Assembly (NCBI RefSeq): GCF_000003815.2
Contig: NC_049993.1
Coordinates: forward strand, 427,539-491,538
Source of the DNA: Branchiostoma floridae
Taxonomy: Eukaryota; Chordata; Leptocardii; Amphioxiformes; Branchiostomatidae
Reading direction: 5' to 3'
DNA: 64,000 bases
How positions within the stretch are numbered: the first letter of the stretch is position 1; each line of letters begins with the position of its first letter. Made by a program: the position numbers and the translations under genes. Below the pieces are notes generated by a model. That model ran no database searches. It had not been told where the DNA came from and worked only from the letters and a program-made list of their open reading frames with translations. This document shows, in pieces, positions 29,345-63,725 of the stretch.

Positions 29345-29926
29345 TACGAGGGGCGTGCAATTAGTAATGGTCCTGACCCATTTCCCATAGCAGGAGATTA
29401 ATGAAACTTGGCACAGTTATTAGTCTTTCTCTTCATAGGAATCACCCAGAGTTATGCATTTCTCCCATCGTTTGATGCAGCTCTGGACACCGATTTTGTA
29501 GGACACCCCAGGTTGGTCCTCCAACTGATGCCTCATCAATGGCACAAGAGGGACGACCAGGTCTGGGAGCTGTTTCCACAGACTTCCAGCCACGTTTGAA
29601 TTCAGGATGCCAGCGTTTTACAAGGTCATATGATGGGGCATCATCACCATAAGTTTCATTTATTTCATCAAAAGTCTTCTTTGGTGTGCGTCCTTTCAAA
29701 TACAAAAACCGGAACACTGCGCGACACTCAACTGGTTCCATTTCACACCTGGTCCATTTCGCACCTGACTAAGTTCAAACACCAGTAAATCAGAAACCAC
29801 AATTAGTTCAGAGCTGTCTTTTGCAACATAACCCATAGAGATATGAATTATTACACATACAAAATTTCATTTAGATCAGACAACTGGAAGTGGGTCAGGA
29901 CCATTACTTATTGCACGCCCCTCGTA
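29345..29926 (-). mobile_element. Deleted mariner-family element nested in the LINE
   Basis: Inverted ends begin CGAGGGGCGTGCAAT and are flanked by TA on both sides; the element is 578 bp. On the minus strand, about 29540-29741 encodes the N-terminal DNA-binding part of a mariner transposase (VECRAVFRFLYLKGRTP, YGDDAPSYDLVKRW, GRPS). The catalytic D,D34D region is gone, so it cannot move itself. It lies inside the LINE reverse transcriptase and is therefore younger than the LINE. Confidence 0.85.
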
Positions 29927-41299: not shown

Positions 41300-43289
41300 C
41301 AGTCCAGCAAAACAAAGAAAGGCTAAAGCTAAAGTTGCCATACATCACATTGTGATGCGTAGGCTCGGCACCCATCTCCGTTTCATAGCCCTAAAACAAA
41401 CAAAAACATCAAAACAATTTTGACATTTTTTATTCCATATACTTAGAACATGACATTGTATGTTCTCATGGGTAAGTTTACCTACTGCACAATCTCAGAA
41501 CAACCTCGACCATTGCACCATTATACAAGCGTCAAGAGGATATCATCCATATAAAACATTCGAGTATTAAATGATACACATTTGGGAGGATCTGAACACC
41601 TTGTATTCAAAAATTCAATGCTATCAATTTTTTTTAATTAACTGTTTACAATAACATTACCAGCAATAACTATAGGCTCAGTAACTGCACAATCAAGGAG
41701 ATATGCTACAACTCAAAATAAGTTAATCAACATACACAATGTACTTTGTTTAACTAGATTTGGACCATGGAAAACAGCCAAGTCAACACTTTTACCAAAA
41801 AGTAAAGCTGGCTGACCAAGTGAAGAAAAATTAGTCATTTTTTTTGCATAGATCGTTCTTATTTACATGTAGTTTGTAACAATCTTGTAAGCCAACACAA
41901 ACATTATATTTTACTACTGGTGCATTCATGCTGTATATATACAGAGGGAGAGATAGATTAAGAGAGAGAGAGTTCAAACTTGAGAGGCCTTTTCTTCAGG
42001 ACATATTCTTTACAGCTGTGGGGTGGATGACCTGGTCATTTACTTCTGAAGACGACTGTAGTAGGGCATGTGATGTGTTTCCACATTTAGTCCACATTTA
42101 GTTCAGTTTCAGCTCTATGATGTTAACTATCAACATAGTTGGACTTTCATGCTGACATGTAGTTCAAGTACATAACAATTTCTTTTACATTACCTTCCTA
42201 CCTACCTAAGTCCCTTGACCACTGGTTGTTGGTCAGTTTTACAAGCTTATTACATAGGTAAACATTAATATTAGCAACAGTATCATGGCATAACACACTC
42301 AACTGTAGTAGTTAAACTATCTACACCTTCTACATTAGACATTAATTTGCATCTGTCAACATTTATTTTTGTGTTAATCAAAGTGTGATGCCCATGTACA
42401 TGTACTTGTAAGCAAGGTACGAATATACATGTACATGTATATTCAAACTGTTAGCTTCTTTGTCAGGATTTATGATAATAATGTTTTATTGCAAATTCAT
42501 GCCCATGGGGCTAATTGCAAGTGAAGAAAGACTAGATACATGAAATGAATGAATGTGGTCTAGATACATGTAGATAATCTAAATTCTAACATACAAATAT
42601 TAAGTGGATGAATGTACATACAGTACAGAATAGGGTATTATGACCCACCCTCATGAGGTGTTTATGTTGCCATAATTCATCGTCGACTGAATGAACATGC
42701 GTAGCGAGGTCATTTATAAGGTGGTTAAAGGAACCAACCAAAGTGGATCATTAACCTTATTATCATATACTAGATATGATGAATCCCAATGGCGCAGTCA
42801 CAGTTTTTGTTTGTCCAGCCTTTTTTCTTTGCTGGCCCTGGCCAGACTGTTGCTCTCCCTGCCTTCCCAACTTTACCTGCATGGCCATTAGTGATAAAAT
42901 CTCCCCACTCCCTCCACAAGCCAAACATCACTGTTTCTGATCAAATCCTACACATCCAACACATTTGAACAGTGCTACCATTTTGGATCCATTCATCCCT
43001 GAATGAAAATTCAGATTGGACAATTTCCTGTGTATTGTTCATTCTGATTTGGCCTGTTTTTTGGTTAACATTTTGAAAAATCTAGAATGGTTGACGTCAC
43101 CTGGCTATATGATAATTTTCCATACAGACACTTGTTCCATTGTGTATATGTCAGAGTCTATAGACAAGGCTCTTGCAGCATAAACACAGTTCGTTTCCAC
43201 AAAGTTTCTTTCGAAGCTTTTTAAATGATTTTGACCTGCAAGTGAAGAACATTCCAATCTCATCATGCAGATGATTATAGACCACAGGT
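41300..43289. other. Convergent intergenic spacer between GPCR and HD phosphohydrolase genes
   Basis: Holds the 3' UTR of the minus-strand HD gene; a TTTATT at 42485-42490, read as AATAAA on the minus strand, is one candidate end. A short AG run is at 41944-41973. Nothing else recognised. Confidence 0.4.
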
Positions 43290-43421
43290 GAGGTGTGTTG
43301 AGCTCATGTTGCAGGCAGCTCCAGACCTAAGGTGAGGTGTGTTGAGCTCATGTTGCAGGCAGCTCCAGACCTAAGGTGAGGTGTGTTGAGCTCATGTTGC
43401 AGGCAGCTCCAGACCCAAGGT
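43290..43421. repeat. 44-bp tandem repeat derived from the end of the HD-gene terminal exon
   Basis: Three copies with units starting at 43290, 43334 and 43378. The unit closest to the gene contains the last codons (LGLELPAT) and the TGA. The other two lie downstream in the 3' UTR, so the stop codon and the preceding codons are triplicated. Confidence 0.9.
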
Positions 43422-46400
43422 GACATTGATGGCCTGTAGGTGCTGGATCTCCCGATGAAGGTTCTGTCTGGCCTGCTGCTCAAACTGCTCACGGAACTCT
43501 TCTGTACTGAAGATGTTGGTAACTTCTGACAGTGTCTTCTTTAGAAACTGGTGAAAGAAAGAGAGGGAAAGTGATATTGGTCCAGTTAAGCTCATTGATT
43601 GAAGAGCTTTTCTTTCACTGGTTGTGACAGAGAAGATAGATGCTATATACAGTATTTATACAGGTTCATTGTACTGGAAAAAAGCCCCAACAAGGGACAA
43701 CAAATAGTGCTTAATGTCAATGAGCCAGTTCAGCTTATATTCTCTTCTATGTTCTAAAACCTTTCATAGATCGACAAATTTGTACTAAAAAAACATGACA
43801 ACATTGCTGTTTACCACAGACAGTATACAAGGATAATTTTGCATGTAACATTATATCAAATTTTTCAAATTGTATGCAAAATTTATGCCAACATGCAATT
43901 TCACACAAATATTGTAACAAAAAAACATCAACAATTGTAAGCAAACATGTGCCATAGGTTCTGGTCCAGACTTACAAGCTGAACCTGAGTCCGGACCTGA
44001 ACCTGAGTTAATGCAGCACTACCCACAAAGTCTTCTGCACAAACATGTACAATGTAGTTTTCCCACCTTGGCTCTTCTCTCCCGGTACTGGTCCAGGGGA
44101 ATGTGCACATACTCTTGTCTGATCTGTTCTGCATACACATCATAATCTGCCAGTAAAATAAAAACATATATCTTTGTACCAGGAGTCACTCTGGTGAAGG
44201 GGATAGGGATAGACAAGCCCATTGGCCTAATTACCTACAGCAATTGAAAGTGCTGATTGGGCAAGTGCATGTCCTACATGTGTACTGCACTTGCTCAATT
44301 GAGACATTGAGATTTTTTCATGGGTGCAATTTTTACATGGATACATGGGTAAATATTGGACCAGTTATATGCTTTAAACTGAACTACAATAATCTAGACC
44401 TGTAGAGTTTGCAGAACTACAATTCTAGACCTGTAGAATTTGCAGAACTACAATTCTAGAAATATCTATCTCTGGACATTTTGATTACCTTGTTCAGGCC
44501 AGCCCAACACTGACATGTCGAAGTCCAAAAAGTAGTGCTTATCTTTTGTGCCGTACCTGGAAATTTACACAGTGTCACATAAACGTTATTTGCATAACTT
44601 TGGGTATTTTGTTATATTTCAATCCATGCTACAGTATGGATTGAAATATTTTGTTTTTTGCCTGTTCTAAAAACATGTGGCCACAATAGAGTCCATTCCA
44701 AGACACCATGCGGATGTTTGTTGCCAAATGTTTAGAATTGATTTTAAAGTTTTGTAATCATATGTCTAGGACATTTGATACTTCAGAAATATTTTCAACA
44801 CTGTTTCAACTTTATAAATATTTCCCTGGTCCTGTAAAACTTTGGAAATATTCATGGTGTGGAATTGGATACTTCTAATGGTTTCTAGCTAATGATAACA
44901 ACATTCTACCATTATTTACCATTTTCTACCATTTTCTACCATTTTTTGTAAATGGTTCGGTGGGCTGGGAAGATAGCAATTCACACATCCTTGCAAAGTA
45001 TGGTTGGGTGCCATGCAACAATGGCCCACCACAAAGGATCCACCAGTGCCCAGCAGTGAAATCTAAAAATATACAGATGCAACAATATGGCTTACTTTTA
45101 TGGGGGCAATAAACTAATTTACCATTTGGCCAGGTTGACCATTTTTTGTAAATATTTGTAAATGTGAAACAATCACAGAGAGATTTCGCAATTATTCTAA
45201 ATAAAGATATTTTTGTACAGTTACTTTCAAAATGTTTCTAAAATATTCAAAGAAATTCAAATAAATGAGTATTTTCTTAGTCAATGTTTTGAAAATAATT
45301 TAATTATTGTGGCTCAGATATTCTTTTATTCAAAATAATTCAGACTAATGATAAATATCGCCTAAAAACCCTCATGGTGTCTTGGAATGGACTCTAGCAT
45401 CCCTGGTCAATCAGAGAGGGCCACATACACTGTATCCCTTGTGTCCCTCTTTAAACAACATTGGCGATACAAACATTACTGAAATGGCATGGATGGACAA
45501 ACCAAGCCAGGGAAGAATGTCTAGTCCTGTCAATAAGCAATATTTGTTTTTTGCTGTTTTTTTTCTTCTTTTCACCCTTGTGCATTAGTTGTATCCAGAG
45601 GATGTCATACATATTAAACTAAGTATCTATTCCATGTAATTGTTTGATCCGGTGTACAATTATGTACATGCATGTCAGTTCATGAGTTGTGTATGAAGAA
45701 GTTTGCAAAGCTGACCTGTCCTTATTCCTGTGTTCCTTAGTGACATGCTCCTTAGTCAGCAGGATGAGTCTCTCTGTTTCACGGATACAGTCAGGGGGCT
45801 GAAACATAAACCACCACCACATAGTTAAATCGATTGCAAACTTCCAATATTCAAAACAAGCTGATTGTTTGGTTAGGCCACACCAAGTCTATTTGTTGTT
45901 TCTTGGATTTTTTTCAGAAACAAATTGGGTTGGTTGGTCGAAAAAAATTTTTTAAAAGAACTTTTGCAAAAAGTAGGAGAGATCGAGAGGCTTACTCAAG
46001 TTACACAACAGAAATAACAACATTTCAACATTTAAGGGGTCCCTGGTAGCAAAGTTCAAAGTTTGAAGAAAAATGATAAATGTACCGTCAGTACCGTAGC
46101 TATGGGACTACTACTACTACCGTCCAAAATAGACACGTACAGCTACTGGGATTTGAGGTCCATAGTTAATTTGAGAAAGGAGAGGCATTGAAATTTTGTC
46201 AACACGAGGTGTGGCCATCAATTTGAAATTTTTTTTTTTTTTTTCAAATTGGAATAGGGTTGGGAAATCCGAGAAGCAACAAATAAAATTGGTGTGGCCT
46301 TAAGAGGAATCATGCAGGGCACATAATATCAACCTTCCCCAATAAGGTTAAGTCCTCGTCAGCATTCATGTGTCTATGTATCTGTCTGTGACCATCAGAA

Positions 46401-48467
46401 CTCCAGAATACCTGCCAGTGGTTGGATTGACTTCAACACCTATTGACCACCAAAAAATCAAAAGTATTTCCACGACCAAGATACCAAATAAGGGTCCTGC
46501 TGCAGTACCAAGGTTGGCCATCAGGGGGCCCAAATCGACCTAGACCATAAGGTCCACAACACCTACCCACATACCAAATATAATCCCAATCACCTGAAAG
46601 ATTGGAGATTGGAGCTGCACACTAGAACTAATGTACACACATGCAGAACTAACATTACCTCCATTTTCTAGGAGGTGACAATGATTTGAATATGTTTCTG
46701 GTCATACCAATTTGTACCTTATAATCTGCTATATCAAAGGATGCTAGAATGAAGTATGAAGAATACAGGCCTAAGCAATTTGTGGCCAATGATGGCTGTA
46801 CTAGTATGTAACAATACTTAAGTGTCCATTAGTTATCATGGACCAGTGCAGGTTTTGCGCTGACAGATATCACCAAACTGCATAGCTCCAATTTTTGCTG
46901 CATCAAAATTCAAATAGCTCCTGGACCAATTTTTCTTGCGTCAAATGAATGTTTAGACTGTCTATGGAGGTGAGATTTGAGCCTGTGTACACAATGTACA
47001 ATAGTGATCATACAGGTTCAGGAACGTTGACAGATACATGATCATGTTAGACATAGGCAATTCTCTTCCACTGTCAGATATCATCTTGTTCAGATATAGA
47101 CTAAGTTAATCTTATTAAACTTTCAGAATCGTTGATTATAATTGGACTAAGAAATAACTATAGACAAACAATAAAAAATGAACATAATAAATTGGTGGTG
47201 GGAAAACAGTGATGAAAAGAGACATTACGCATTACAAACAGCTGATATGACTTAACATGTCACCTTTTGCAGATTCTCCGTGGCAAAGTGGTGGAACATT
47301 TCTGCACTTCTGGCTTCATTGTCAGAGGCCTTGGCATCATAGACAATACTGAAAATTAAAACAATAATGTTATATGATCCAGATACAGTTTTATGCCATA
47401 CATTATGGTCCTTTGCTTTTAAGAAATAATGAATAAAGCTGACAATTACTAGATGCAAATATTTTACAAACTTAAAGTATTATTCATTTATTTATGATAT
47501 GAAAACTTTTGAACAATAATTTTGCTTTGTTCAATGATTACAATAAATATGCAAATAGGCAATCAGTGCTAGGTACTTACTCATGAAAGAAAATAGCCCA
47601 TGCCACAGCATTCTGGTTTTGTATTTTGTGCCTGTGGTTGTCAAAGTGCAGAAACATGCTGTGCACATGGGACAGGTTGTGATAGAAACGCCACGGCTCA
47701 CAGTACCTGGAAGACATAAGCATGTACCATCAACATCTAACCCATGTAACGTTACCTCTGATGATGTCTACAATGGTTGAGATGTGGATAATGCTATTTT
47801 CATTATTTACCCTCAAATATTCAAAGACGAAGGTTAAGGTTATGCTCTAGCCTGTCAGGCTTTTGGCCGGGTGCTTGGTTTTGGAAGCTTGGCTGCCCTG
47901 GTCTGGCGTGTAGGTCGCGGGTTCAAATCCCGGGAGCGAGCTTCGGGTAAAAACTGTTCTACTTGCCTCTAGTATTTCACTGGTTCCCACACCGGGAATC
48001 GAACCCGGGCCTTGGCGGTGACAGCGCCAAATCCTAACCAACATGGTCGGTTGGCAGTGCTTGAACCCAACTGTTTATACACTGTCGCCTCTAGTGTTTC
48101 AAAGGTAAAGGCCCAATATTGAAAACAGTCCTTGTTTTGACCATTTTGATTTACATAACGTTACCAACGTCCAGACAAGTTTTGTTTTCTATTTCCGGGC
48201 CTTTACCCTTGACATACATGTAACTGTACATGTACAGTATTTACCTGCTATTTACCTAGAATTCCTGTCGCCGCACATGCGTTCTGATCTCTATGAAAGG
48301 GCTTATTTATGACCTACACCATGTAAGCTATCCTCCCCTGGGACGTACCTATCCTTGACGACCCGCCACCATGCCTGGCTCGCCTCCGCCGTCCTCACCA
48401 TGTCTCGGGAACACAGTTCTGTCCACCGCTCGTACAGCGGCGCCTCCACGGTACCGGTACCGGACAT
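43392..48467 (-). CDS. HD-superfamily metal-dependent phosphohydrolase (COG4339-like)
   Basis: Seven exons in transcript order: 48349-48467, 47581-47706, 47264-47348, 45716-45798, 44489-44556, 44067-44146 and 43392-43547 (TGA). All phases match, giving 238 residues. Metal-binding landmarks are in order: the FYHNLSHV histidines (about 49-53), the HD doublet at 81-82 split by an intron (WAIFFH, then DIVYDAKASDNE), and the late aspartates in FLDFDMSVLGWPE (149-151). This is the pattern of the predicted metal-dependent HD phosphohydrolases found mainly in bacteria and scattered eukaryotes; the substrate is unknown. The chosen start (MSGTGTVEAPLYERW) is the nearest ATG before the conserved region. 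An in-frame ATG at 48629 would add a 10-residue repeat (SVGLFSTRGR). The terminal exon is partly tandemly repeated after the stop. Divergent from METTL4. Confidence 0.88.
45873..46302. mobile_element. MITE with GGCC ends and TTA target duplication, copy 1
   Basis: The element is 424 bp (45876-46299). Inverted ends read GGCCACACCAA and TTGGTGTGGCC, extended by an imperfect ATTTGTTG...TTGGATTT arm, and TTA is present on both sides. A 3-bp TWA duplication is typical of PIF/Harbinger elements. It lies in intron 3 of the HD gene. A relative is at 61993-62448. Confidence 0.75.
47965..48101 (-). mobile_element. tRNA-derived insertion (tRNA-Asp-like) between direct repeats
   Basis: On the minus strand, 48055-47984 carries an A-box-like TTGGTTAGGATTT, an anticodon arm TGGCG-CTGTCAC-CGCCA (anticodon GTC) and a B box GGTTCGATTCC in a perfect T-arm, then GTGTGGGAACCA. 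The 5' acceptor strand does not pair, so it is not a functional tRNA. Near-identical repeats GCCTCTAGTATTTCA (47965) and GCCTCTAGTGTTTCA (48087) flank it like a target duplication. A second B-box-like GGGTTCAAATCCC lies at about 47920 on the plus strand. It lies in intron 1 of the HD gene. Confidence 0.55.
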
Positions 48468-48490
48468 GGCACGGGCTCCAACCGTACCAA

Positions 48491-48600
48491 ACAAGCCTAC
48501 ACTCCGTCCACGCGTGCTAAACAAGCCTACACTCCGTCCACGCGTACTAAACAAGCCTACACTCCGTCCACGCGTGCTAAACAAGCCTACACTCCGTTCA
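48491..48600. repeat. 30-bp tandem repeat next to the HD-gene start
   Basis: Nearly four copies of ACAAGCCTACACTCCGTCCA plus CGCGTGCTAA, period 30. It is a multiple of three and open on the minus strand, so it could encode an N-terminal 10-residue repeat if translation starts at 48629. Otherwise it is 5' UTR or promoter. Confidence 0.9.
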
Positions 48601-48708
48601 CAAGATCGGAAGAGCAGACAGACTGACATTTTATAAAATATTGTCCTCTTTGTTCACAAGATCGGAAGAGCAGACAGACTGACATTTTATAAAATATTGT
48701 CCTCTGTG
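48597..48708. repeat. 56-bp direct duplication containing an adapter-like 13-mer
   Basis: Two adjacent copies of a 56-base unit starting TTCACAAGATCGGAAGAGCA and ending in a TATAAAATATTGTCCTCT stretch. The AGATCGGAAGAGC core equals the common start of Illumina TruSeq adapters, but the following bases do not continue the adapter. Confidence 0.85.
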
Positions 48709-49345
48709 TCGTGGTCTCCCCTGGTCTTCAGACACACAACGCAACATGGAAACATAGGGCGTATCGGCAACAGACACGGATCAGGCCCTCCAATTAATGT
48801 CCCTGTAAATGCTCTACCGGTCCATAATATTTTTCTGTGCCGACCCTCAGGGAATTCTCACCTGATGCAATTTCTATCGATCTTACGAAAGGACGGACTA
48901 AAGTACTGCACCTCAGAGTTGTCTGACCCTCAGTAACCTAATGACCTACATGGAAAAGGTCATCGGACAATTACATATCAACATAGGTAACGTTACACAT
49001 TTTAATTTATATTCAATATCCTATCAAATAGTAGATCAAAAGCTAGAATTAGAGTCATCTTTAAGTTTTTATAACAAATTTAGTATCCTTACTATGAGCA
49101 ATTTGTTTCGTTTATGATTACTAGTAACGTTATAAGAAAATTGCGCCCCTATCAGTTGAATGGAATAGATCAGAGCATAGCACGCACGGCACGCACGAGC
49201 AGAACTGTTTATCGAAGTCAGTGGGCATATTCTTTTAATCTTTAACATCAATTACATGTTACACAAAGTCTAGATATATTATGGACAGAATGAGATTTTA
49301 TGTGGTAAGTTTATGAACGTGGGATCACTATAAATCTAAGTTAGT

Positions 49346-52300
49346 ATGGCAGTAGTGGTGGAAAATGATTGGGGTTGGTTTCTGAATCAGAAAGTTGCAA
49401 TTGAAAAGTACTGTGAGACAGTGTCAGATGGAGATGCGGAGAGAAGCTACAGTTGTAAGGAGGAGCTGTTTGCCATCACCCAGCCACACATCACTGCTCA
49501 CCATGGAGGAAGCCTCACCCAGCCACACATCACTGCTCACCCTGGAGAAAGCCTCACCCAGCCACACATCACTGCTCACCATGGAGGAAGCCTCACCCAG
49601 CCACACATCCCTGCTCACCATGGAGGAAGCCTTACCCAGCCACACATCCCTGCTCACCACGGAGGAAACCTCACACAGCCACACATCACTGCTCACCATG
49701 GAGGAAGCCTCACCCAGCCACACATCACTGCTCACCATGGAGGAAACCTCACCCAGCCACACATCACTGCTCACCATGGAGGAAGCCTCACCCAGCCACA
49801 CATCCCTGCTCACCACGGAGGAAACCTCACACAGCCACACATCACTGCTCACCATGGAGGAAGCCTCACACAGCCACACATCACTGCTCACCATGGAGGA
49901 AGCCTCACCCAGCCACACATCACTTCTCACCCTGGAGAAAGCCTCACCCAGCCACACATCACTGCTCACCATGGAGGAAACCTCACCCAGCCACACATCA
50001 GTGCTCACCAGGGAGGAAGCCTCACCCAGCCACACATCACTGCTCACCCTGGAGAAAGCCATGCTGACCATGTACAGACAGGCCTGGAGGCGGTTGCCAT
50101 GGGAACGAATGCTAGTGCCAATGGTTACCAGGACAGGAAAAGCAGGGTAAGGACTGTTCCAAACAGAAACGCTTGCACGGCATTAGGCCCTCAGTAGAAA
50201 AAACAACAACTGATAATACATGATCATGTATACCCATAACCTCCTTGTTCAAACTGTCAACCAAGAACATAACATTAATGTTATAACATCATAAATTTGC
50301 TCTTGTGTCAATGTAATCAAGCTTTATAGACGATGCTAGAGAAGATGCTAGCAAAAAGATTGCATTAGATTTGCAGTCTGCCGAGAATGTCATTCATAAA
50401 ATCTACTTGTTGTATACTGTCTTATAACGAGATAAGTGTGTTTACCTACATACAAAGTCCCATAAGTACAAAGTGAGGCCTAATTCCTTTTTAATGTTGG
50501 TATATATCTTCATGGAATATCAAGTTACAATAGTGTTGTTTGGGTACATGGTCTTTCCATGCACTTACTGCCATACACTGGCTGCATGTGTGATTTTTTG
50601 TATGTTATTTTCATGAACTGCACAGAAAAGAAAAAGAAAGAGAACAAGTGACTTGAATACAGGAGAGGCGGCTGCTATGGAATATCACATTCAGGTTAGG
50701 AATCAAATTAAAACGCTATCAGCTTAAAGGGGCATTCCACTCCACACGGGAGTGTTATTTTCCGATAGATATTCATTTTAGGAAGTGATAACTGCATACG
50801 ACTTCACATTATACGATAAAGTACCCAGTTGCTCCGCATGACTCAAATGCATTCAGTCTTCTACTAAACTCCCCGAGTACCCTCTAATTGAATAAATCCT
50901 ATGGCTGAATACAATGCAAAACTTTTAGGTAAGGTGACCAAACTAATTTCAGGTTCACTAAGAAATTTCGTATTGTTCTTGTATTCTTTGCTATCTTAAG
51001 AGAAATTTGCCTTCTCGGTGTGCTCAGCGTACCTCATTTATTCCGAAAATATGTACGATAAACAAAGTGTCTATGCGTATAGGGAATGCATGGGTAGGGT
51101 CTGCATGGGTTTAGTGAGTGTCATTATTGTTTTATAAAACACACATCACGTAATTCATCCCAAGGTGAATTCCACAAAATTCGGCTGATTGTGTATTCAT
51201 TGAAACATTATTTATTGGAAAACAAGACTCCCTTCTGGAGTGGAATGCCCCTTTAAGGGATATATTGTAAAAAATAATGAGTTGCATCTACCTTATTAAT
51301 TTGCACAGCAATATTTACAATGTATGAATATATGACTTAGTTGTGCTGTGAGGACATCTTGAAATGTGCACACTTCTCACCGCCACTTGAGTTGTCCGAC
51401 ATTTTGTCCATCTTTCCGATGAACCAAGGAACGCGTTAGAACGCGTTTGGTGGTTCGCTCGAATTGTTACTGAAGTTTGTTGAAAGTTACCAATACAGTA
51501 TGCTCCGAAGATCTCCGACCTCAAAAGTTGATTTGGAAATCTACGGCTGGCTTACTTCCGGGTAGGCTACCCAGAAGTAAGTGGATTTGGTCACGACTTG
51601 CTTAAAATTGTGTTGTTCATTCACGCTAGAAATTTGAAAAAGTGACGCAGAAATGTTGAAGATAAGTTACAAGTGTCGATCTGACTGGAGATTTTAAAGT
51701 TCAGAATAGTTGTTTAATATTTTGGTGCCAAAATCTTGCACTGTTACAGTATATCCCTTAAAGCCAGGTCATGCTTATCTAATGTACCGGTAGTAAAAGT
51801 ACACACTTTGCAAGTTGTTGCCAAAGTAAGGATATGTACTACAATGTACAAGTGTAGTTAAACTTAGCACAGATAAATGGGAAGAGGACATCAAATAGAT
51901 CAACTTGAATGCAGTACTACTGACCATTGACCTGTGCAGGTAGACATCAGAAATACCTGCACTAACCTATAATGCTAGTTCACCTTTATCTGTTGGGTAA
52001 CCTATATCTGTTGCTTTTAAAAAACAGGGTATTTGGGGATATCACGTTGACAAATATTGGTTTGCAATTTCAATATTTTCAGTACATTGCAATTTAAAAC
52101 TACAACCCGTCGACTTGATGTGCCTAAATACACTGTTTCGAAAAACAACAGATATAGGTTACCCCTCAGATAAAGGTGAACTAGGGTTATACACATAGTG
52201 TAGGTGCCTGCATAGGTGGTACTTACAACCCTGAATGTGCTTTATACTGGAAAGGAAATGTTTTCTAATGCTAGTTAACCCTATTATTTTGGTTCATACT

Positions 52301-55300
52301 AGATCAGAACAAAGTTGGTACAGGCCCATACAGCAATTCTGTTGACTGGGAGAGCCAGTGGACTGTTTCAAGACATCCCTTCTGATGTTGGTCCTGTTGG
52401 AAAGCCATTCCAGGACTGGGGGCCTGGAAACTGCCTGGCAGATCTCTGTGATTTGGCCAGAATAACAGGCGATGAGAAACCACTTTACATATCACAGGGT
52501 ATGTACAGTACAGACTTTAGATGTGAACATGATTATGTTGGTTCAATTGATATTGGCAGTTTTTGTGGTTAGGCCTAGGAAAAAAAATGTTGTGTTTCCT
52601 GTTTCCCTACCTTCCCTAGAAAAACCTGCCGACCCTAGACTTTTTTTTGGGTGGGCAGTAGAGTCACATAGCTTCCAGTTAGAATTTTTATTCAGCCTGC
52701 TTCCTATTGAAGTAAAAACAGTCTGCTTGTCCTATCTATTGTGCACAAAATCAAAGTTTGACATCGAAAGACAAGTGTCCTCATGCATTTCAGTTTCCTT
52801 TGTTCAACTGTATTGTAATATGTATCACTAGATTTTTGGCTAGCCTAAAAAAAATTACAAAAAAAAAAAAAGATATCACCTACCTACCGACCCTAATTTT
52901 TTCAGGACTGAAACAGGAAACACAACATTTTTTTTCCTAGGCCTTACAGCTTCACCGTAAATACAAAACCAAAGTCTTGCTCAGTATTTTCCCCTCTTTT
53001 CTACGTACGTGTGCTATATTTACATGACTGTGTATGTACATTGTGCAATATTGTGTGTTGCAGGCCTTTGTTACATTGAAGATGTAATGAATACTAACAA
53101 AGCACAAATATTTCATGTTTGAACATTAAATGATATATTTAAGAAGTGCTACATATCCAGATATATAGACGGTAGATATGGTCAGATCACGGCAGCACTG
53201 CCGGAAGCGATTATTCTGTAGCAGCTGCTATACCCTTGCCCAGTTGCTAGTTAACGTTGGTTGTTTCCAACTGGCTGTTCATATCATTTGATATAAGACA
53301 TGTACAGTGAGTTTGATTACAGTAAGACATTTTTTATATTTACTGACCTTAGCAAACTCAAAACTACAGTGAACACTGAACTTTGTCTCTATCGCAAACT
53401 TAAATCCCTGCAAACTTAAAAGCATTGATTTTACGGTACTTTAGATCTAGAAGTATCAGCTTTGCAGGTTTTCATCAGTTTTGGGGTTCCGACAGGAGGG
53501 CATCCATAATATCAGGCCACTGCGGCTTCAAATTTGTGCTCGTTGAATGTTGGTTTGGAATGGAATAGAGTTGCTTCAACATATTACGTAGAAACGTACC
53601 CAAAAATTGACTTTCATGATTAAAGTTCTATAACCCTGACTCGGGCTAATATTGCATAGTAGCAGAGGTATGATGAGGTCGTGGAACTCTATCTAGTTCA
53701 CCAGTATATCGGCTGAGGTCAAAAACATTTGTTGTGAACAAAGAAATTCAATGTTTGTTAACCATTGATTAACCAGTTTAATGAAACTATTTATGGTTGA
53801 ATTTATCTTTTATGACCATAGCAAATGAAAAGGTTGAAAGTACTTAGTTCGTTTTATTTTGTCTTCCCAGGAACACCTTTAGAAGAGTCCAGAGATATTT
53901 TCAACCGACTCGTACTCATCGATTCCAACCAGCCAATCATCAAATGCCTCCTGGGGAGCCGGTACCTGCTTCCTCCCAGGTCCTCATTTCTTATGTCTGA
54001 CATTACCAGGATGGAGCCCCTTCTACAGGGTAAGAGAACCCAGTAACAGACATAGGTCACTTGTGCAGGGTTAGAGAACCCAGTAACAGACATAGGTCAC
54101 TTGTACAGGGTTAGAGAACCCAGTAACAGACATAGGTCACTTGTGCAGGGTTAGAGAACCCAGTAACAGACATAGGTCACTTGTGCAGGGTTAGAGAACC
54201 CAGTAGCAGACATAGGTCACTTGTGCAGGGTTAGAGAACCCAGTAACAGACATAGGTCACTTGTGCAGGGTTAGAGAACCCAGTAACAGACATAGGTCAC
54301 TTGTACAGGGTTAGATAAATAAATACAGGGTTAGATAACCCAGTAACAGACATAGGTCACTTGTACAGGGTTAGAGAACCCAGTAACAGTCTTAGGTCAC
54401 TTGTACAGGGTTAGATAACCCAGTAACAGACATAGGTCACTTGTACAGGGTATGAGAACCCAGTAACAGACATAGGTCACTTGTACATGGTATGAGAATC
54501 CAGTAACAGACATAGGTCACTTGTACAGGGTATTAGAACCTAGTAACAGACATAGGCCACCTGTACAGGGTTAGAGAACCCAGTAACAGACATAGGTCAC
54601 TTGTACAGGGTATTAGAGAACCCAGTAACAGACATAGGTCACTTGTACAGCGTAAGATAACCCAGTAACAGACATAGGTCACTTGTATACAGGTTAGAGA
54701 ACCCAGTAACAGACATAGGTCACTTGTACAGGGTTAGAGAACCCAGTAACAGATATAGGTCACTTGTACAGGGTTAGAGATTCCAGTAACAGACATAGGT
54801 CACTTGTACAGGTTATTAGAACCTAGTAACAGACATAGGCCACTTGTACAGGGTTAGAGAACCCAGTAACAGACATAGGTCACTTGTACAGGGTATTAGA
54901 ACCTAGTAACAGACATAGGCCACTTGTACAGGGTTAGAGAACCCAGTAACAGACATAGGTCACTTGTACAGGGTTAGAGAACCCAGTAACAGACATAGGT
55001 TACTTGTACAGGGTTAGAGAACCCAGTAACAGACATAGGTCTCTTGTACAGGGTTAGAGAACCCAGTAACAGACATAGGTCACTTGTACAGGGTTAGAGA
55101 ACCCAGTAACAGACATAGGTCACTTGTACAGGGTTAGAGATTCCAGTAACAGACATAGGTCACTTGTACAGGTTATTAGAACCTAGTAACAGACATAGGT
55201 CACTTGTACAGGGTATGACTATGAGAACCCAGTAACATACATAGGTCACTTGTACAGGGTTAGAGAACCCAGTAACAGACATAGGTCACTTGTACAGGGT

Positions 55301-58300
55301 TAGATAACCTAGTAACAGACATAGGTCACTTGTGCAGGGTTAGAGAACCCAGTAACAGACATAGGTCACTTGTACAGGGTTAGAGAGCCCAGTAACAGAC
55401 ATAGGTCACTTGTACAGGGTATGAGAACCTAGTAACAGACATAGGTCACTTGAACATGGTAAGAGAACCCAGTAATAGACATCATTCACTTGTACAGATT
55501 GAGTCTCAGAATCCAGTAACAGAAATAGACAACTCAGCAAAAGAGAGGGATATGCAGCTGCAGATTACAACATTGTCATGTACATGTACATTCATGCCAT
55601 GTTGTTACAGGAGGACTGAAGTATCACCTCATTGTAATGGACCCACCCTGGGAGAACAAGTCTGTGAAGAGAGGCAGAAAGTAAGCAGCGATTCCAGTTG
55701 CCTACTTTTCTACCATGGTGTTATACAGTAGGTTGCATGGAGAAATGAATGAATGTGAACTAACAAAATTGTTTCCTGTGACTATTCGTGTGTTTTCAGT
55801 ACATCAAACATTTCATTATTATAATCCATATACAAATCTAGTATGTACATGTAGTGAGAAGGGGCTGCCATACATTTAGGCAGCATGAGCAAGAGACAAA
55901 AGGAAAATATTCACGGTGGTTTTGAGTTTTGAGTAGGCCGCTGTGAAAATTGAGAACATAAAACCAGCACAAAACTTTCTGCATTTACAGTAGTAGAATG
56001 CCAGGAGTGTAGATTTACGATGTAGCTGTTGAGACAGGCCACAGTAAAATGAACACTATGGTTGTTAAGTACACTGTGCTGTACTATGTATCCAGAGGGT
56101 ACATTGTAGATGCGGTTAGAAAAGTGACACAGACAGTTGATGATCACGAATTGCACTGCACCTCCAAAAGCGATTGCTATGCATGTTTGTAGTACCTGAC
56201 TGAGGGTCGATGTGTGGTGTCCGACTCGCTGCCAAGAACTTAAAACCACTGCAAATATTTACTTCTTAACTGGCCCATGTTAGACACATTTTCGTGTAAT
56301 TATCCGGCATTGGTGACTTTTTGTCGTGCAGATAAGCAAAGTCACTAACAATGGAGTGAATGGGAGCCAGTTTGGGATTTTGTGATTCCTTGCAATTGAC
56401 TGAAGTGTGCTGTTATGTGACGATGCTTCTACTGTACTTGTATTTCTGTAGGTATGAATCTCTGTCACCATGGCAACTGTTCCAGCTACCAATCCCGTCC
56501 CTTGCTGCTCCCGGCTGCTTGGTTGTAACGTGGGTAACCAATCGACAGCAGCATATGAGATTTGTGAGAGAAAGACTTTATCCTCATTGGTCAGTGGAGC
56601 CAGTTGCGGAATGGCATTGGTTGAAGGTGAGATTTAGAAAACACATTGAAGATTCTAAACTGAAGAAAAATAGGTCAGAATGGTAGCAGTTCTCTTGCCC
56701 TATATTGTTATGCAACTGGAAAGTACTTTCTATCTTATGGATTTGAAGACTTCTCTGAAAAGATACTTTGAAGTTAAAAAAAAAAAGGGGAAACACTGGT
56801 GTAGTCTGCCCTTGCTAACACATTTTTTGTATTTCTAGGGTTAGTCCTGTGCAGATTGTCTATTTCTGGTACGGTATTGTTAGCGCACTTTGTACTGTGC
56901 TGTAGATTGCTTCAAAGAACGAATCATCCATTTAATTTGTTAAGTGATTCATTATGTAAATCTGCATTGTTGTGAGGTCATGTTGATATGAAACGAAATG
57001 AGATGAAAATTGATGTTTTTTTACATTCCGAGAACCAACATATTGTATATGTGTGGCCTAACATACTTTCCTGTAGAAGTAACCCTCTGTTTTAAGCAAA
57101 CATTCTGTCCATGGATGAATCATCACAGGTCACCAGAACAGGTGAGCCTGTATTCCCCATGGACTCTCCTCACAAGAAGCCTTATGAGACAATCATACTG
57201 GGCAGGTTTCAGGACCAATCAGACGGTCATACGGAGACAAGTTCATCTCCACTCAGTGATGTACCCAGACACAAGGTCATCTGCAGCGTGCCCTGTGCCA
57301 TACATTCCAGAAAACCTACACTGGATGGTCAGTCTCATGTCTATGTCCCTAATATAACATTCATTGACAACTATGTATATAAAATTAATGTATAGAATAT
57401 TTGACACTGACCTCTGAGCTTCTTAATCTCTTAAATACATTACTTTTACTTTTAGAATAAGGTATAGCATTAGTATTTGCTTTAGGTATAAGTGTATCTT
57501 TAGATTGATGTTAAGGTGTAAATAGTCTCAATGTACATTGTTAATGTTGTATTATGGAACGTGTTTGTCTTATGACTCCAGGAAGACTAGTGATGCATTG
57601 TCTGAATTGTGCTTACTAATGGAGATCGTTTTAATAAACAATAAACAATATATCTGTAATAAGGCCATGTTGATTCAACTACTGGTATGTTGATTAAACA
57701 TCCTCAGGGAACCCAAAAACTTATGAGAGGGTGAAAATTGAAAAACATTTGGCAAAAAGTTACCTTCATTATGAAATCGAAACAGTCAAGAAGATTGAAC
57801 AAAATGACTATATAAATACCATTCTTCTTTGACTTTGGAATTTACTTTGAACAGTTTCCAGCATGGTGGAAAACTGCTTTGGGGAAATCATCTAAAATTG
57901 ATGTGCACACAATATTATGAATCAACATGGCCTAAATGAGCACCTCAATTTAGGTGAAGCATGATACTTCTTCATGTAGGTGGTGGTAGCTGGTTGGTGG
58001 AAACCGCTGCCTGGTCTGGTCAGTGGAAATAGCTGCCTGGTCCGGGGGCTGTTTTAGGGGTTTCGAGTAAAGCATAGTGCAGAGCAAGGTATCTCGTGCA
58101 GCGAGTATGCTTCCTTGCAGAAAGTAATGGAATCATATGGATGTTTCCATATCACCTACCATCCGAGGTGGTGTCTGTTTCTTGTTTGCTAAGCAGAAGG
58201 TGGGGCTGTAGTTTTATGATCACACGCGACTGTTCAACAGAGGCCAGTTTCTGGGATCTGCCTTCGCTTCTGTAGAGAAAAGGTGACTGAGATTTAAATT

Positions 58301-60480
58301 CTCCTACGTTGTGCAGCAGTGATGCCTGCCCAGATGGGTTGTTGTACCCTGGGAGACCAAACCTGGTGAGTTGGCGCCACCGGGGATACCCAGGCATTTC
58401 ATTTTCAATATTCCTATATGAGACAGACAAAAAGCAGGCTACTATTTGAAAAATGAATAATCTGTACAGAATACTTCCAGCCGTGTTCCAACTGAAACCC
58501 AGTCTGAAATTTTGACGCGGACATGATACAACCATGAATGGGTGTACTGTTTCATATTGAGATTCCAATGCTTTCTGCAAGGAGACGCAGCTGCACGAGA
58601 TACCTTGCTTTACTCAAAACCCCTAAAACAGCCCCCTGACCAAACCACCGGACAGCGTTTCTGACAACCCTGGTGGTAGTGGCTTCACTACAGCTTGCAT
58701 TTTTTGCCATGCACGTCTGACCCAATGCAACACACTCATCAGTCACCATTCATTCATAACTGCCCATTAGCTGTGCTAGTACCTGTTAGTCATGTAACAT
58801 TAGCATGGCCAGCTTTTTTTCAAACATACTTGTCTTCATTTCAGCCTGGATTGGAATTCCACTCAAGTTGTAGATATAACCTATTATTCCGTGAGAAATG
58901 TGTAGATAAATAAATACCATATCAATACTAGCAATCTTTTAGTGAAAGAACAGGAAATATAATTTGCGCTACCCCCATTGTAAATGGAATTGTCAAAATG
59001 CTTTGAAGGCTGGGAATGAGAACGCTAAAATGGCGCACAGTTCAAAGACAAACGAAGCATAGGAATACCAAAAAGAAGGGCCGGACGAACAAAAACAATT
59101 TCCCAGTCACAGTCCCAGATATTGGGAATGTGCCAATCTAAGTGTTGCTATTTTGCTACTGTAGAAGTCTTGCAGAAGTACCTGCCGCCCTCACCCATCT
59201 GCTTGGAGCTGTTTGCCAGGTGCCTACAGCCCAGGTGGACCAGCTGGGGCAATGAGGTGGGTACATGCCATTTCTGTAGCTGATATCTACGAGGGGCGTT
59301 CAATAAGTAATGCCCCTGACCCATATCCAGTTGTAATGATTCATATCTCTATGGGCTATGTAGCAAAAAACAGCTCTGAACTAATTGTGGTTTCTGATTT
59401 ACTGGTGTTTGAACTGAGTCAGGTGTGAAATGGAGCCAGTGTTGTGCAGTGATCAGGTTTTTGTATTTGAAAGGACGCACACCAAAGGAGACTTTTGATG
59501 AAATGAAAGAAACTTAATATGTTGATGATGCCCCATCATATGACCTTGTAAAACGCTGTCATCCTGAATTCAAACATGGCCGGAAGTCTGTGGAAACAGC
59601 TCCCAGACCTGTTCGTGCCTCTTCTGCCATTGATGAGTCATCTGTTGAAGGACCAACCTGGGGTGTCCTACAAAAACGGTGTCCAGAGCTGCATCAAACG
59701 ATGGGAGAAATGCATAACTCTGGGTGGTTCCTATGAAGAGAAAGACTAATAACTGTGGCAAGTTTCATTAATCTCCTGCTATGGGAAATGGGTCAGGGGC
59801 ATTACTAATTGAACGCCCCTCGTACATGTGTACTCACAGTCATGTCTCAGTCTCAAATAATGCTAGGCTGCTACCGGGTATGTTGGTGGGTTGAGGATGC
59901 AGCCAAGTTGTTCTGTGAGAGAAATATTCTTAGTGATGGTCAAATCTGGATTCCGCAGCCACTCAAGGAACCTGAGGAACAATGGTTGCTGAGACTTAGT
60001 AATGATGGACGGGACTGTATTCATTTTAAGGTGTCCTGTGACTGGAGCTGGTTTCCTATCCAAGGTACATTGTTTTGTTACCGACTAGGTTTGACTGTAG
60101 TTACAACATGCCTGCCCTTTCATTATCAGTTCCATTGCGGCTGTGCGTCCTCTGCCTTACCTGTGTGTTATTGCCAGCCTCTAAGCCTTTGTATACTTAC
60201 CACCAGAAATTGTTTTTCTTTTCTGAATCATTTGTTTGTGCTAAATGACTGTTCTATCTATGTGTACAAAAATCAAGTCTGTTTAAGGGTCCTTTAATGG
60301 TCCCACATACAAACAAATAGCTGCACTAAAGATTTCTAGATGTTTCCATTTAAGGTGCAATTGCTGTTCCCTTTTACACAATTTGTCTCACATTTCTTAT
60401 CTTCAATCTCCCCCTTGCAGGTCATCAAATTCCAGCACTTAGACTTCTTCAATGAAAACAGGCCTGAGTGTCTGCAGTAA
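49346..60480 (+). CDS. METTL4: METTL4, N6-adenine methyltransferase (MT-A70 family)
   Basis: Nine exons: 49346-50146, 50626-50694, 52303-52498, 53871-54029, 55611-55680, 56452-56626, 57129-57327, 59165-59256 and 60421-60480 (TAA). All phases agree, giving 606 residues. The family uses S-adenosylmethionine to methylate adenine N6; vertebrate METTL4 acts on 2'-O-methyladenosine of U2 snRNA and is also proposed to act on DNA. The catalytic DPPW is at residues 419-422 (55640-55651), followed by ENKSVKRG. Other family blocks are AAAMEYHIQ, YLLPPRSSFLMSDI, LAAPGCLVVTWVTNRQ, VAEWHWLK, FPMDSPHKKPYE, LELFARCLQPRWTSWGNE and FQHLDFF. The N-terminus (GWFLNQ..., EELFAITQPHI) also fits the family. The length exceeds the usual 470 or so because of 15 in-frame 13-residue repeats in exon 1. 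Exon 4's donor and the last exon are also minisatellite-associated. Introns hold a piggyBac MITE, a TTA-type MITE and a mariner remnant. Confidence 0.95.
49477..50065 (+). repeat. 39-bp coding minisatellite in METTL4 exon 1
   Basis: About 15 units encode TQPHITAHHGGSL with small variations (residues about 45-240). The first unit grows directly out of the conserved METTL4 segment ELFAITQPHI. The unit length is a multiple of three and free of stops, so two other frames also stay open; those are by-products. Confidence 0.95.
50724..51256. mobile_element. piggyBac-type MITE, copy 2, in METTL4 intron 2
   Basis: A 525-bp element (50728-51252) with AGGGGCATTCCACTCCA inverted ends and TTAA on both sides. 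The interior is clearly related to 23759-24281 but diverged by substitutions and indels. Confidence 0.8.
52569..52946. mobile_element. MITE with GGCC ends and TTA target duplication, in METTL4 intron 3
   Basis: A 372-bp element (52572-52943). Inverted ends start GGCCTAGGAAAAAAAATG and continue through TTGTGTTTCCTGTTTC with almost no mismatch. TTA lies on both sides, as in PIF/Harbinger-type elements. An internal ACCGACCCTA/CCGACCCTAGA arm suggests more pairing. A frame at 52472-52831 read through it is not a gene. Confidence 0.75.
54026..55495 (+). repeat. 40-bp minisatellite starting at the METTL4 exon 4 splice donor
   Basis: About 36 units (ACAGGGTTAGAGAACCCAGT, then AACAGACATAGGTCACTTGT). 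The first unit contains the real exon end and donor (CTACAGG|GTAAGAG). Later units carry GGTTAGAG, or sometimes GGTATGAG and GGTAAGAG, so donor-like GT motifs recur every 40 bases. There are no unique spacers, so it is not a CRISPR array. Confidence 0.95.
59288..59824 (+). mobile_element. Deleted mariner-family element in METTL4 intron 8
   Basis: A 533-bp element (59290-59822) with CGAGGGGCGTTCAATAAGTA inverted ends and TA on both sides. It is the same family as 29345-29926. On the plus strand it retains a broken copy of the transposase DNA-binding region (remnants of the APSYDLVK segment) and no catalytic domain. Confidence 0.85.
59827..60297 (+). other. Open frame of unknown origin inside METTL4 intron 8
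   Basis: An ATG-started frame lies between the mariner element and the last METTL4 exon. Its first part (about 59860-60063, ending CDWSWFPIQ before a GT) is compositionally protein-like, with many Trp and Glu codons. METTL4 proteins have no matching segment between WGNE and the FQHLDFF block. It could be a fragment of another mobile element or an unrelated exon. Confidence 0.25.
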
Positions 60481-61527
60481 GACTCCATCAGCAGTCAGAC
60501 TTCTTCAATGAAACAGGCCTGAGTGTCTGCAGTAATAGTCGATCAGCAGTCAGACTTCTTCAATGAAAACAGGCCTGAGTGTCTGCAGTAAGACTCCATC
60601 AGCAGTCAGACTTCTTCAATGAAAACAGGCCTGAGTGTCTGTAGTAAGACTCCATCAGCAGTCAGACTTCTTCAATGAAAACAGGCCTGAGTGTCTGCAG
60701 TAAGACTCCATCAGCAGTCAGACTTCTTCAATGAAAACAGGCCTGAGTGTCTGCAGTAAGACTCCATCAGCAGTCAGACTTCTTCAATGAAAACAGGCCT
60801 GAGTGTCTGCAGTAAGACTCCATCAGCAGTCAGACTTCTTCAATGAAAACAGGCCTGAGTGTCTGCAGTAAGACTCCATCAGCAGTCAGACTTCTTCAAT
60901 GAAAACAGGCCTGAGTGTCTGCAGTAAGACTCCATCAGCAGTCAGACTTCTTCAATGAAAACAGGCCTGAGTGTCTGCAGTAAGACTCCATCAGCAGTCA
61001 GACTTCTTCAATGAAAACAGGCCTGAGTGTCTGCAGTAAGACTCCATCAGCAGTCAGACTTCTTCAATGAAAACAGGCCTGAGTGTCTGCAGTAAGACTC
61101 CATCAGCAGTCAGACTTCTTCAATGAAAACAGGCCTGAGTGTCTGCAGTAAGACTCCATCAGCAGTCAGACTTCTTCAATGAAAACAGGCCTGAGTGTCT
61201 GCAGTTATACTCCATCAGCAGTCAGACTTCTTCAATGAAAACAGGCCTGAGTGTCTGCAGTAAGACTCCATCAGCAGTCAGACTTCTTCAATGAAAACAG
61301 GCCTGAGTGTCTGCAGTAAGACTCCATCAGCAGTCAGACTTCTTCAATGAAAACAGGCCTGAGTGTCTGCAGTAAGACTCCATCAGCAGTCAGACTTCTT
61401 CAATGAAAACAGGCCTGAGTGTCTGCAGTAAGACTCCATCAGCAGTCAGACTTCTTCAATGAAAACAGGCCTGAGTGTCTGCAGTAAGACTCCATCAGCA
61501 GTCAGACTTCTTCAATGAAAACAGGGA
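60443..61527 (+). repeat. 56-bp minisatellite copied from the METTL4 terminal exon, including its stop codon
   Basis: About 19 units combine GACTCCATCAGCAGTCAG with ACTTCTTCAATGAAAACAGG and CCTGAGTGTCTGCAGTAA. The second and third parts are the last coding bases of exon 9 (DFFNENRPECLQ and TAA), so the gene's stop and final 12 codons are repeated through the 3' UTR. Copies are almost identical, which indicates recent expansion. Confidence 0.97.
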
Positions 61528-61703
61528 TAGAATAGGGGTTAACTTTTTATTTGTTCAATATGGCATTTTTTTGTTCAATATGGCAATTGACAGGATGGGT
61601 CCATTAGCATCACTGTCAAATGTTGAACTATGCTTCATGTGATGTAGGGGCTGAGTAGGGCTGCAGTCAACTCTGCATCATTATTTGACAGGACATACAT
61701 TGT

Positions 61704-61709
61704 AATAAA
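61704..61709 (+). promoter_or_regulatory. Candidate METTL4 polyadenylation signal
   Basis: An AATAAA followed by a TTTGTTATT-type T-rich stretch, about 180 bases after the minisatellite. If used, the 3' UTR includes the whole 56-bp array. Confidence 0.35.
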
Positions 61710-61992
61710 GTTTGTTATTACGTTCATATGTGCCTGAATTGCCTTGAAAGTAATATCATAGTTCGACCTTGCCTTAAAGGACCTGTACTTTTAGGAGCTG
61801 GTTTCCTTCACATCTTTTAATATGTCATTGTTCTTTAGACAGTTATCTGTGCCCCAAAGGAGGGCTGTTGACACTGGAATGATCATGAAAATAAATAAAT
61901 AATTTTTATCTTCACCGTACCTTTGAGTGATTCATCGTTAATGTTTGTCACTGATTCTCACACTCACTCTCTATCCTGTTATCCTAGGGATA

Positions 61993-62448
61993 GGCCACGC
62001 CAATTTAATTTGTTGCTTCTTGGATTTCCCAACCCATTTTTTTCTGATTTGGAAAAAAAAAATGTAGTCCCGAGAAAAATAATATAGGTTTTGCTATAAT
62101 TGCAGACCTGTAAAAAAGATAATTCCAGGAGCACATACTACTGATGAACCAATCAGAGAGCTTCTTTGTAGTCACATGATAGAAAACAACCAAATGAATA
62201 AGCTTCTTGCATTTCCTCAACACACATAATTTTATTATAAAAACAATTCCCTTTATGCAGACCAATGGTATGAAATCAAAGGAAGAAATTCATTGGATAA
62301 ATCATGCCATGAAAATCTGCTACTAACCTTGTTTTTTTGTGTCATATAAGCCTCATACATGTATGTTCACCCCACGACGTTTTGCATTTTTTTTCCCGCC
62401 CGCCCGCCCCAAATTTTCCTCGGCGCAACAAATCAAGTTGGTGTGGCC
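61993..62448. mobile_element. MITE with GGCC ends, copy 2
   Basis: Inverted ends GGCCACGCCAATTTAATTTG and AATCAAGTTGGTGTGGCC are related to the element at 45873-46302. The flanks do not show a clean TTA duplication, so this copy is older or its ends have changed. Confidence 0.65.
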
Positions 62449-62695
62449 TTTGAAGTGCTTGTGCAGATAGATTGGCTTCATGGCAGCACGCTGTCCTCAT
62501 TTACATAAATATATGAATAAATATATATCTTCTCAAAGTATGAAAGCCTTATTTTACATGAAGCAAAGAAAGCTATTGTAATATTTTGGGGACTTCTTAC
62601 TTATAGCATTTGGACGTTATGTACAAGTGAACATCATTGAACATTTAATTATGCAAATGAGGTCCTCATGTATGTTGTATGGGACAGTAGCAATT

Positions 62696-63075
62696 TCCTT
62701 CCTTCTTTTTTCCATCCTTTCATTCTTTCTTTCACTTCTTCCTTCCTTTCTTCTCTCCATGTACTTCTTTCACTCCTTCCTTCTTTCCTTCCTTCACTCT
62801 TTCCTCTTTTACCTCCACCCTTCCTCCCTTCACTCCTGCCTTCATTCCTTCTTCCATTCCTCATTTCTTCCTCCTCTCACCTCCTTCCTTCCCTCATTTA
62901 TTCCCTCCTTCACTCCTTTCCTCCCTCATTCCCTTCTTAACTCCTTCCTTCAGTCCTCCCTTCACTTGTTCCTTCCTCTCTACCTCCTTCATTCCTTCCC
63001 TCATTTACTGTTTCCTTAACTCCTTCCTCCTTCACTCCTGCCTTCACTCCATCCTTCCTTCCACCCTCCTGTTTT
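62696..63075. repeat. Pyrimidine-rich CTTCC repeat tract
   Basis: Long CTTCCTTC, CACTCCTT and CATTCCTT mixture on the plus strand. The Ser/Leu/Phe-rich frame through it is not a gene. Confidence 0.95.
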
Positions 63076-63450
63076 TACTTCTGCTATATTACCTCTATTA
63101 CATTACTCTGAGAACATATAGAAAATATCACAGTACTCAGTGGTCTACTAGAAGAATCCTGTTGTAATACTGTGCTTACATGCACAGCTATGTGGCCCAA
63201 GGGCTAAAGAAATGGAGATGGCCATTGTCCTATCTAACACTCCCTTTTGACTATAGGCTACGACTGCAGAGCTACCAAAGATTATGACAGATTGCTCAAT
63301 GAATTTTATGGATAAAGAAACAAATTGTTTTACATTTTGTGTGTTTTGTTGCCTTTTAGAGGATACTTTTAAATGTTTGTCTCCAGTCATAAAATCAAGG
63401 AGGGACCCTCTTTCAACCTCCTTGATAAAATCAAGGGTCACACAAATACA
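63076..63450. other. Spacer or intron, nothing recognised
   Basis: Probably intronic to the minus-strand gene whose exon is at 63617-63725. No supported exon. Confidence 0.4.
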
Positions 63451-63451
63451 G

Positions 63452-63616
63452 TCACGCTGAACACCGTCCACACACAAGCAAACATACCTGTCCCTGGTGC
63501 TGAACACCATCCACACACAAGCAAACATACCTGTCCCTGGTGCTGAACACCATCCACACACAAGCAAACATACCTGTCCCTGGTGCTGAACACCATCCAC
63601 ACACAAGCAAACATAC
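63452..63616 (-). repeat. 43-bp tandem repeat adjoining a splice donor
   Basis: Nearly four units, period 43 (landmark ACATAC at 63482, 63525, 63568 and 63611). On the minus strand each contains a CAG|GTATGT or GAG|GTATGT donor-like motif. The first, at 63616, is the true exon border. Because 43 is not a multiple of three, the frame rotates between units. Confidence 0.9.
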
Positions 63617-63725
63617 CTCTTCCTGAGACGTGTGACGACAGTCGCACACAACTACGCCCCACCTGCTGAGATGATTGGCGTGCTCGATCTCTTTGATGAT
63701 GCTTTGCACCCCAGTCATGTCCAGA
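63617..63725 (-). CDS. Internal exon of an unidentified minus-strand gene
   Basis: Acceptor AG at 63726-63727 and donor GTATGT from 63616 bound a 109-base exon (phase 2 in, phase 0 out) encoding LDMTGVQSIIKEIEHANHLS, then RWGVVVCDCRHTSQEE. Clean splice sites and a coherent frame support a real exon. The WGVVV.D.R.TSQEE pattern faintly recalls the WGVMVSHRSGETED segment of enolases, so an enolase-like protein such as ENO4 is one possibility. Spacing differs by a residue or two and the HRSGE core is not conserved, so this is weak. Upstream exons lie beyond the window. Confidence 0.5.

Follow-up and report, generated by a model that had tools for sequence, protein, structure and literature searches.

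Probable mirage-type minisatellites over a splice donor and two stop codons of neighbouring amphioxus genes

Tandem repeat arrays that lie across the ends of exons raise the question of whether duplication starts at such borders, or whether arrays that arise in any way are merely tolerated there. The question is posed by a 64,000-nt stretch of Branchiostoma floridae DNA (referred to here as the window), which is situated 0.43-0.49 Mb into a 21.5-Mb contig, less than 0.5 Mb from its end. A preliminary description listed five arrays, each said to begin at or to contain an exon landmark, and proposed a mechanism that starts at exon ends. Using Tandem Repeats Finder (TRF), we found all five arrays in the window, but only three contain a true landmark, namely the donor of METTL4 exon 4 (40-bp unit), the METTL4 stop codon (56-bp unit), and the stop codon of a neighbouring HD-type phosphohydrolase gene (44-bp unit). 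The 39-bp array is located inside METTL4 exon 1, and the 43-bp array belongs to a dispersed family. Gene-edge minisatellites are real in this region, three of the five being locally generated edge arrays, and the other two do not qualify as such.

The assignment of the first gene to METTL4 was borne out. Nine exons on the plus strand, from 49346 to 60480, form a closed frame of 1818 nt, the product of which matches the Pfam MT-A70 model (E=4.6e-33) and the structure of Arabidopsis METTL4 (7cv6, E=1.8e-45), with the homology extending into the terminal exon. The 40-bp array (54026..55497, plus strand, ~36 copies), which TRF splits into two rows that abut (7.2 and 29.1 copies), starts 4 nt inside exon 4 (53871..54029, donor after 54029, based on gene reconstruction and 7cv6 homology) and runs into intron 4. 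The exon-4 donor is found in copy 1 of the array, contiguous with the exon, and scores 8.8 bits in a position-weight model; 31 other sites of at least 4 bits are present in the array, 30 of them at 4.0-6.2 bits and one, in the last copy, at 8.4 bits. The 56-bp array (60433..61525, plus strand, 19.5 copies) covers the last 48 nt of the METTL4 coding sequence, including the stop codon TAA of the terminal coding exon (60421..60480, placed by the same two lines of evidence), and continues in the 3' direction. The 39-bp array (49476..50060, plus strand, 15 copies according to TRF and the exon model) is an in-frame coding repeat of 13 residues within exon 1 (49346..50146, reconstructed from the start codon onward). 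It begins 130 nt past the start codon and ends 86 nt before the exon-1 donor, and being interior to the exon, it was rejected as an edge-seeded array. Inspection by eye also revealed what seems to be a terminal-inverted-repeat element, holding transposase-like remnants, in METTL4 intron 8 (about 59290-59820), and a stretch near 29.5 kb (about 29442-29768) that resembles it.

The second gene is located on the minus strand, where seven exons from 48467 (exon 1, 48349..48467, reconstructed from the start codon) to 43392 form a closed frame of 238 residues. The 'HD' label is our assumption from a motif, beside a single metal-dependent phosphohydrolase annotation among the eight listed plasmid matches. 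In total, the product matched 133 plasmid records, all at less than 60% identity, and 6 of the 8 listed among them reach residue 223-232, i.e. the terminal exon (exon 7, 43392..43547, stop codon 43392-43394), which was placed by gene reconstruction and this bacterial homology. Searches of Pfam (best 0.11, sub-threshold), NCBIfam, and PDB gave the product no name. The 44-bp array (43279..43423, minus strand, 3.3 copies according to TRF and the gene model) covers the last 32 nt of the coding sequence, including the stop codon, and continues 3' of it. Its ends carry an imperfect direct repeat (11/13 matching) exactly three units apart, the trace expected from slippage between short repeats. Two other arrays near this gene were near-misses and were left uncounted as edge arrays, one at 44381 that misses HD donor 5 by 28 bp, and a 30-bp array of 3.8 copies (48489..48601, no strand assigned, TRF) that lies 22 bp upstream of the start codon and is free of landmarks. 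Next to the latter, a 56-bp duplication in two copies (48602-48709) contains AGATCGGAAGAGC, with which a widely used sequencing adapter begins; coincidence is probable.

If satellite units from elsewhere in the genome had been inserted beside exons, the arrays at gene edges should share their units with other loci. This is true of the 43-bp array (63456..63625, minus strand, 4 copies, TRF and genome search), the unit of which had 221 matches in the genome, on at least 13 contigs among the matches listed, and is identical at 40 of 43 positions to the unit of a randomly sampled locus (L023:3251-4175). In contrast, the 39-, 40-, 44-, and 56-bp units each matched their own locus alone, a single-locus result that holds at the sensitivity of a DNA search that skips very common words and scores the best candidates only. 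Within this sensitivity, insertion of dispersed units is refuted for the three edge arrays, and we regard it as a most improbable origin for them. The preliminary description had placed the 43-bp array at the donor of an exon at 63.6 kb, and the unit in the window does carry a donor-like CAG/GTATGT, but since the unit is dispersed, it was not seeded by this unconfirmed exon, and the array was rejected as exon-seeded. The putative exon had no Pfam match, and a genome search with its region returned the region itself and one neighbouring copy only. This second copy is located beyond a 1721-base N gap just past the window, near a 29.8-copy array of the 43-bp unit (L029, C15:490539-496538), and there the exon-like segment, judged by eye, is roughly 65-70 bp away from the array. 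When positions 580-1000 and 3930-4430 of this locus were aligned, a hand count gave 4/240 differences upstream and 21/146 in the exon-like part, a pattern that would be the reverse of what is expected under purifying selection on an exon.

The window contains further repeats that we record here. An array of 22.4 copies of another 44-bp unit (33486-34438, TRF), absent from the preliminary description, is situated away from every annotated landmark. Thr/Pro-rich repeats of 30 and 33 bp occur in open frames at 1721-1845, 11138-11230, 12839-12994, and 15973-16085, apparently in a repeated gene family; the open frame 11090-11887 has a confirmed F5/8 type C domain. What looks like the donor of a 7tm_1 receptor exon lies 13 bp before the start of a (TGAA)n microsatellite (31433-31558).

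Canestro et al. reportedly described 'mirage' minisatellites in amphioxus Adh3 in 2002. In the later literature, mirages are minisatellite-like duplications of intron-exon boundaries in amphioxus, with Adh3 cited as an example, the mechanism called unclear, and a possible role in intron gain put forward (PMC3087553), and further lancelet cases include troponin C (PMC3902484). The Adh precedent mentioned in the preliminary description is correct, and we also see the Adh3 arrays in the genome, as discussed below. The METTL4 40-bp array has an exon-intron border in its units, with the donor in copy 1, as in mirages. The 56- and 44-bp arrays have the end of the coding sequence as their landmark instead of a border in the strict sense, and we file them as mirage-like. 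Locality of the unit, which is our own reading of the published cases, is found in the 40-, 56-, and 44-bp arrays and is lacking in the 43-bp array. As in the Adh3 mirages, which we also see at locus L052, the tandem units contain the splice site, and the coding-edge copy is contiguous with the exon; unlike Adh3, where exon-intron borders are involved, two of the three edge arrays in the window span stop codons. We did not see stop-codon versions in the portions consulted of PMC3087553 and PMC3902484. A literature search over titles and the starts of abstracts, with most subscription journals outside its coverage, gave no genome-wide mirage count that we recognised.

Other systems show partial likeness. 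In the globin genes, 5' or 3' exon borders are tandemly duplicated as well, and RT-PCR suggested regular splicing, but the units measure about 150-160 bp versus 40-56 bp in the window, and two length haplotypes are documented there for BflGb6, whereas the window arrays are known from one assembly. The lancelet PGBD5 gene has 60- and 108-bp repeats that likewise abut or overlap splice sites, but these are imperfect and vary from 2 to 7 copies between assemblies (PMC3902484), fewer than in the window arrays. Intron gain by tandem genomic duplication also involves duplication around splice-competent sequence (PMC4974935, PMC2891723), but in the window no new intron is evident. The same literature bears on the idea that the arrays are an assembly artefact. 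Repeat arrays are hard to assemble, and the 1721-base gap lies just past the window, but the copies within the arrays differ by scattered substitutions, Adh3 arrays of mirage type are reported to show length and somatic instability (PMC3087553, PMC3902484), and the PGBD5 repeats were upheld by re-sequencing (PMC3902484). We consider an artefact very unlikely.

The preliminary description had argued that independent arrays would not hit exon borders this often by chance, and whether there is an excess at gene edges depends on the null used. As landmarks we counted starts, donors, acceptors, and stops of METTL4 and the HD gene, 32 in 18.4 kb, or approximately one per 575 bp. With the two abutting 40-bp TRF rows merged into one array and one 10-bp array kept, 3 of the 10 arrays in 43.2-61.6 kb (period of at least 10) contain a landmark; arrays at 44381, 44904, 48489, 48596, 57990, and 61546, missing from the preliminary description, are without one. 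When the ten whole arrays were placed at random, 3.34 landmark hits were expected versus 3 observed (P=0.78), an expectation that is high because long arrays and a landmark every ~575 bp meet easily. This is what coincidence in an array-rich stretch with zero border preference would give, and the window is rich in arrays, with 3.6 per 10 kb versus 1.25 across 200 kb of randomly sampled DNA (period of at least 20, score of at least 70). However, whole-array placement counts copies that were made after the founding event and was therefore rejected as a null for seeding, as the question turns on founding units. With each array collapsed to one founding unit, 0.72 hits were expected versus the 3/10 found (P=0.03), and restriction to the five arrays that have at least about three copies lowered the expectation to 0.43 (P=0.005), both P values being post hoc, as the window was picked for looking odd. 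The claim thus fails for whole arrays and holds weakly for founding units, and coincidence without any border preference seems to us rather doubtful.

Outside the window, a random sample was composed of 20 evenly spaced 10-kb loci (200 kb; 13 on contig C2 and 7 on C3). It contained 25 arrays (period of at least 20, TRF score of at least 70), one of which spans a border, versus about 1.5 expected at a density of 1 border per 1220 bp that was assumed from general gene numbers; exons in this sample were not exhaustively annotated, codon scoring (1136 training codons) being too weak, and border hits may be undercounted. The single border array (L010:6075-7455, 50 bp, 26 copies) covers a donor, and the exon ending there continues in phase into the next open frame; the array unit matched its own locus only in the genome search. 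The two exons gave no Pfam match, and we take them as coding because their splice phases agree and their frames are open. Sixteen copies of this array carry the strong donor (11.9 bits), thus spare donors need not decay. An array at L016:7476 starts beside ankyrin-like coding sequence, but the printed unit does not include the possible acceptor, and the array was left uncounted.

In two further sets, borders were located approximately by homology and a splice-site scan. Over 42 borders at 20 DEAD-box exon loci, a set that may include single-exon genes, none of the 4 arrays (period of at least 20) spans a border, with 0.28 expected, and in five mitochondrial-carrier genes with 21 exons, 3 of 4 arrays do, with 0.71 expected (P=0.013). 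The latter comprise a donor array (L054, C171:267701-271800, 39 bp, 18 copies, with 19- and 24-bp TRF rows inside it merged) and two acceptor arrays (L055, 141 bp, 3.8 copies; L056, 54 bp, 2.1 copies). The coding-edge copy at L054 reads an in-frame TAG (GCATAG, oriented position about 813-818), and several copies of the array carry ATAG at this position. The TAG may stem from conversion by the array. It speaks against smooth tolerance at this locus, where the edge copy may be non-functional in its present form, or for a damaged allele. For the DEAD-box and carrier sets together, 3/8 arrays span borders versus 0.99 expected under the founding-unit null (P=0.053), and 3 of 84 borders carry an array. 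All unascertained sets gave 4/33 versus 2.4 (P=0.22), restriction to units of 20-60 bp gave 3/19 versus 0.76 (P=0.037), and addition of the window's nine arrays of period at least 20 to the unascertained sets gave 7/42 versus 3.2 (P=0.03). All counts outside the window exclude arrays with a period below 20, such as two 11-bp arrays in L039.

As a positive control, we examined a putative Adh3 gene (L052), which we take for the published mirage gene from its best match, in one exon and below the whole-protein cut-off, to TIGR02818, the model of class III alcohol dehydrogenase (E=2.9e-37). Exons 2 and 3 (our numbering) have arrays on 4/4 borders, with units of 26 bp (acceptor), 29 bp (donor), 59 bp (acceptor), and 33 bp (donor), the borders being placed by visual inspection of reading frame and splice sites with human ADH5 as a guide. 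Together with the three edge arrays of the window, L010, L054, L055, and L056, this made 11 border arrays for comparison. In 11/11, the array is located on the noncoding side (intron or 3' sequence), and the coding-edge copy alone reaches into the exon, although tolerance and nucleation alike would give spread in this direction. If duplication started at the exon end, as the preliminary description had suggested, the border should hold a fixed position within the unit, but the exonic share of the unit ranged from 0.03 to 0.86 (mean 0.43) and was compatible with a uniform distribution in a Kolmogorov-Smirnov test (P=0.56, small n), which favours generic tandem duplication tolerated at edges over fixed splice-site initiation.

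Taken together, we read the three edge arrays, with a little more than even confidence, as amphioxus mirage minisatellites that arose by local duplication over a donor or stop codon, expanded, and were tolerated at the edge. A local segment of 40-56 bp, by chance holding the splice donor or stop codon, would have been duplicated in tandem and then expanded, presumably by slippage or unequal exchange. The copy beside the coding sequence would still give the donor or stop used in the mRNA, and the other copies would fall in intron or 3' untranslated sequence, with purifying selection acting as the likely filter. The arrays agree with this in having the landmark inside the unit, units of a single locus, a closed frame with the edge copy, and spread to the noncoding side.

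Alternatively, transcribed exon ends may attract tandem duplication through R-loops, splice-coupled damage, or replication-transcription conflict, borders then being true hot spots. The founding-unit excess in the window, the homology-located exons, the pooled 7/42, and the Adh3 arrays on both borders of two exons point this way; the DEAD-box loci, the random 200 kb at its assumed border density, the total of 4/33, and the variable position of the border within the unit point the other way, and the window and Adh3 were both chosen for looking odd. We judge such attraction to be unlikely as the explanation of the three arrays. Passive tolerance, however, does not account for an excess, and the 3/8 homology-located arrays, the carrier genes taken alone, the 20-60-bp units, and the four consecutive Adh3 borders therefore count against the tolerated-duplication reading that we prefer, as borders may truly be favoured to a modest degree. 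Seeding at exon ends is a hypothesis neither established nor refuted by these data.

These arrays add METTL4, an HD-type phosphohydrolase, three mitochondrial-carrier genes, and an unnamed gene at L010 to the hosts of mirages, extend the class to stop codons, and mark mirages as a source of length variation at coding edges. More tentatively, the array frequencies at homology-located borders (3/84), METTL4 and HD-gene landmarks (3/32), and Adh3 borders (4/4) are the basis for a bolder proposal, that donors, acceptors, and stops of amphioxus genes are true nucleation hot spots for minisatellites, with private arrays on a few per cent of all exon borders. If this were true, it would point to transcription- or splicing-coupled duplication that does not need a fixed breakpoint.
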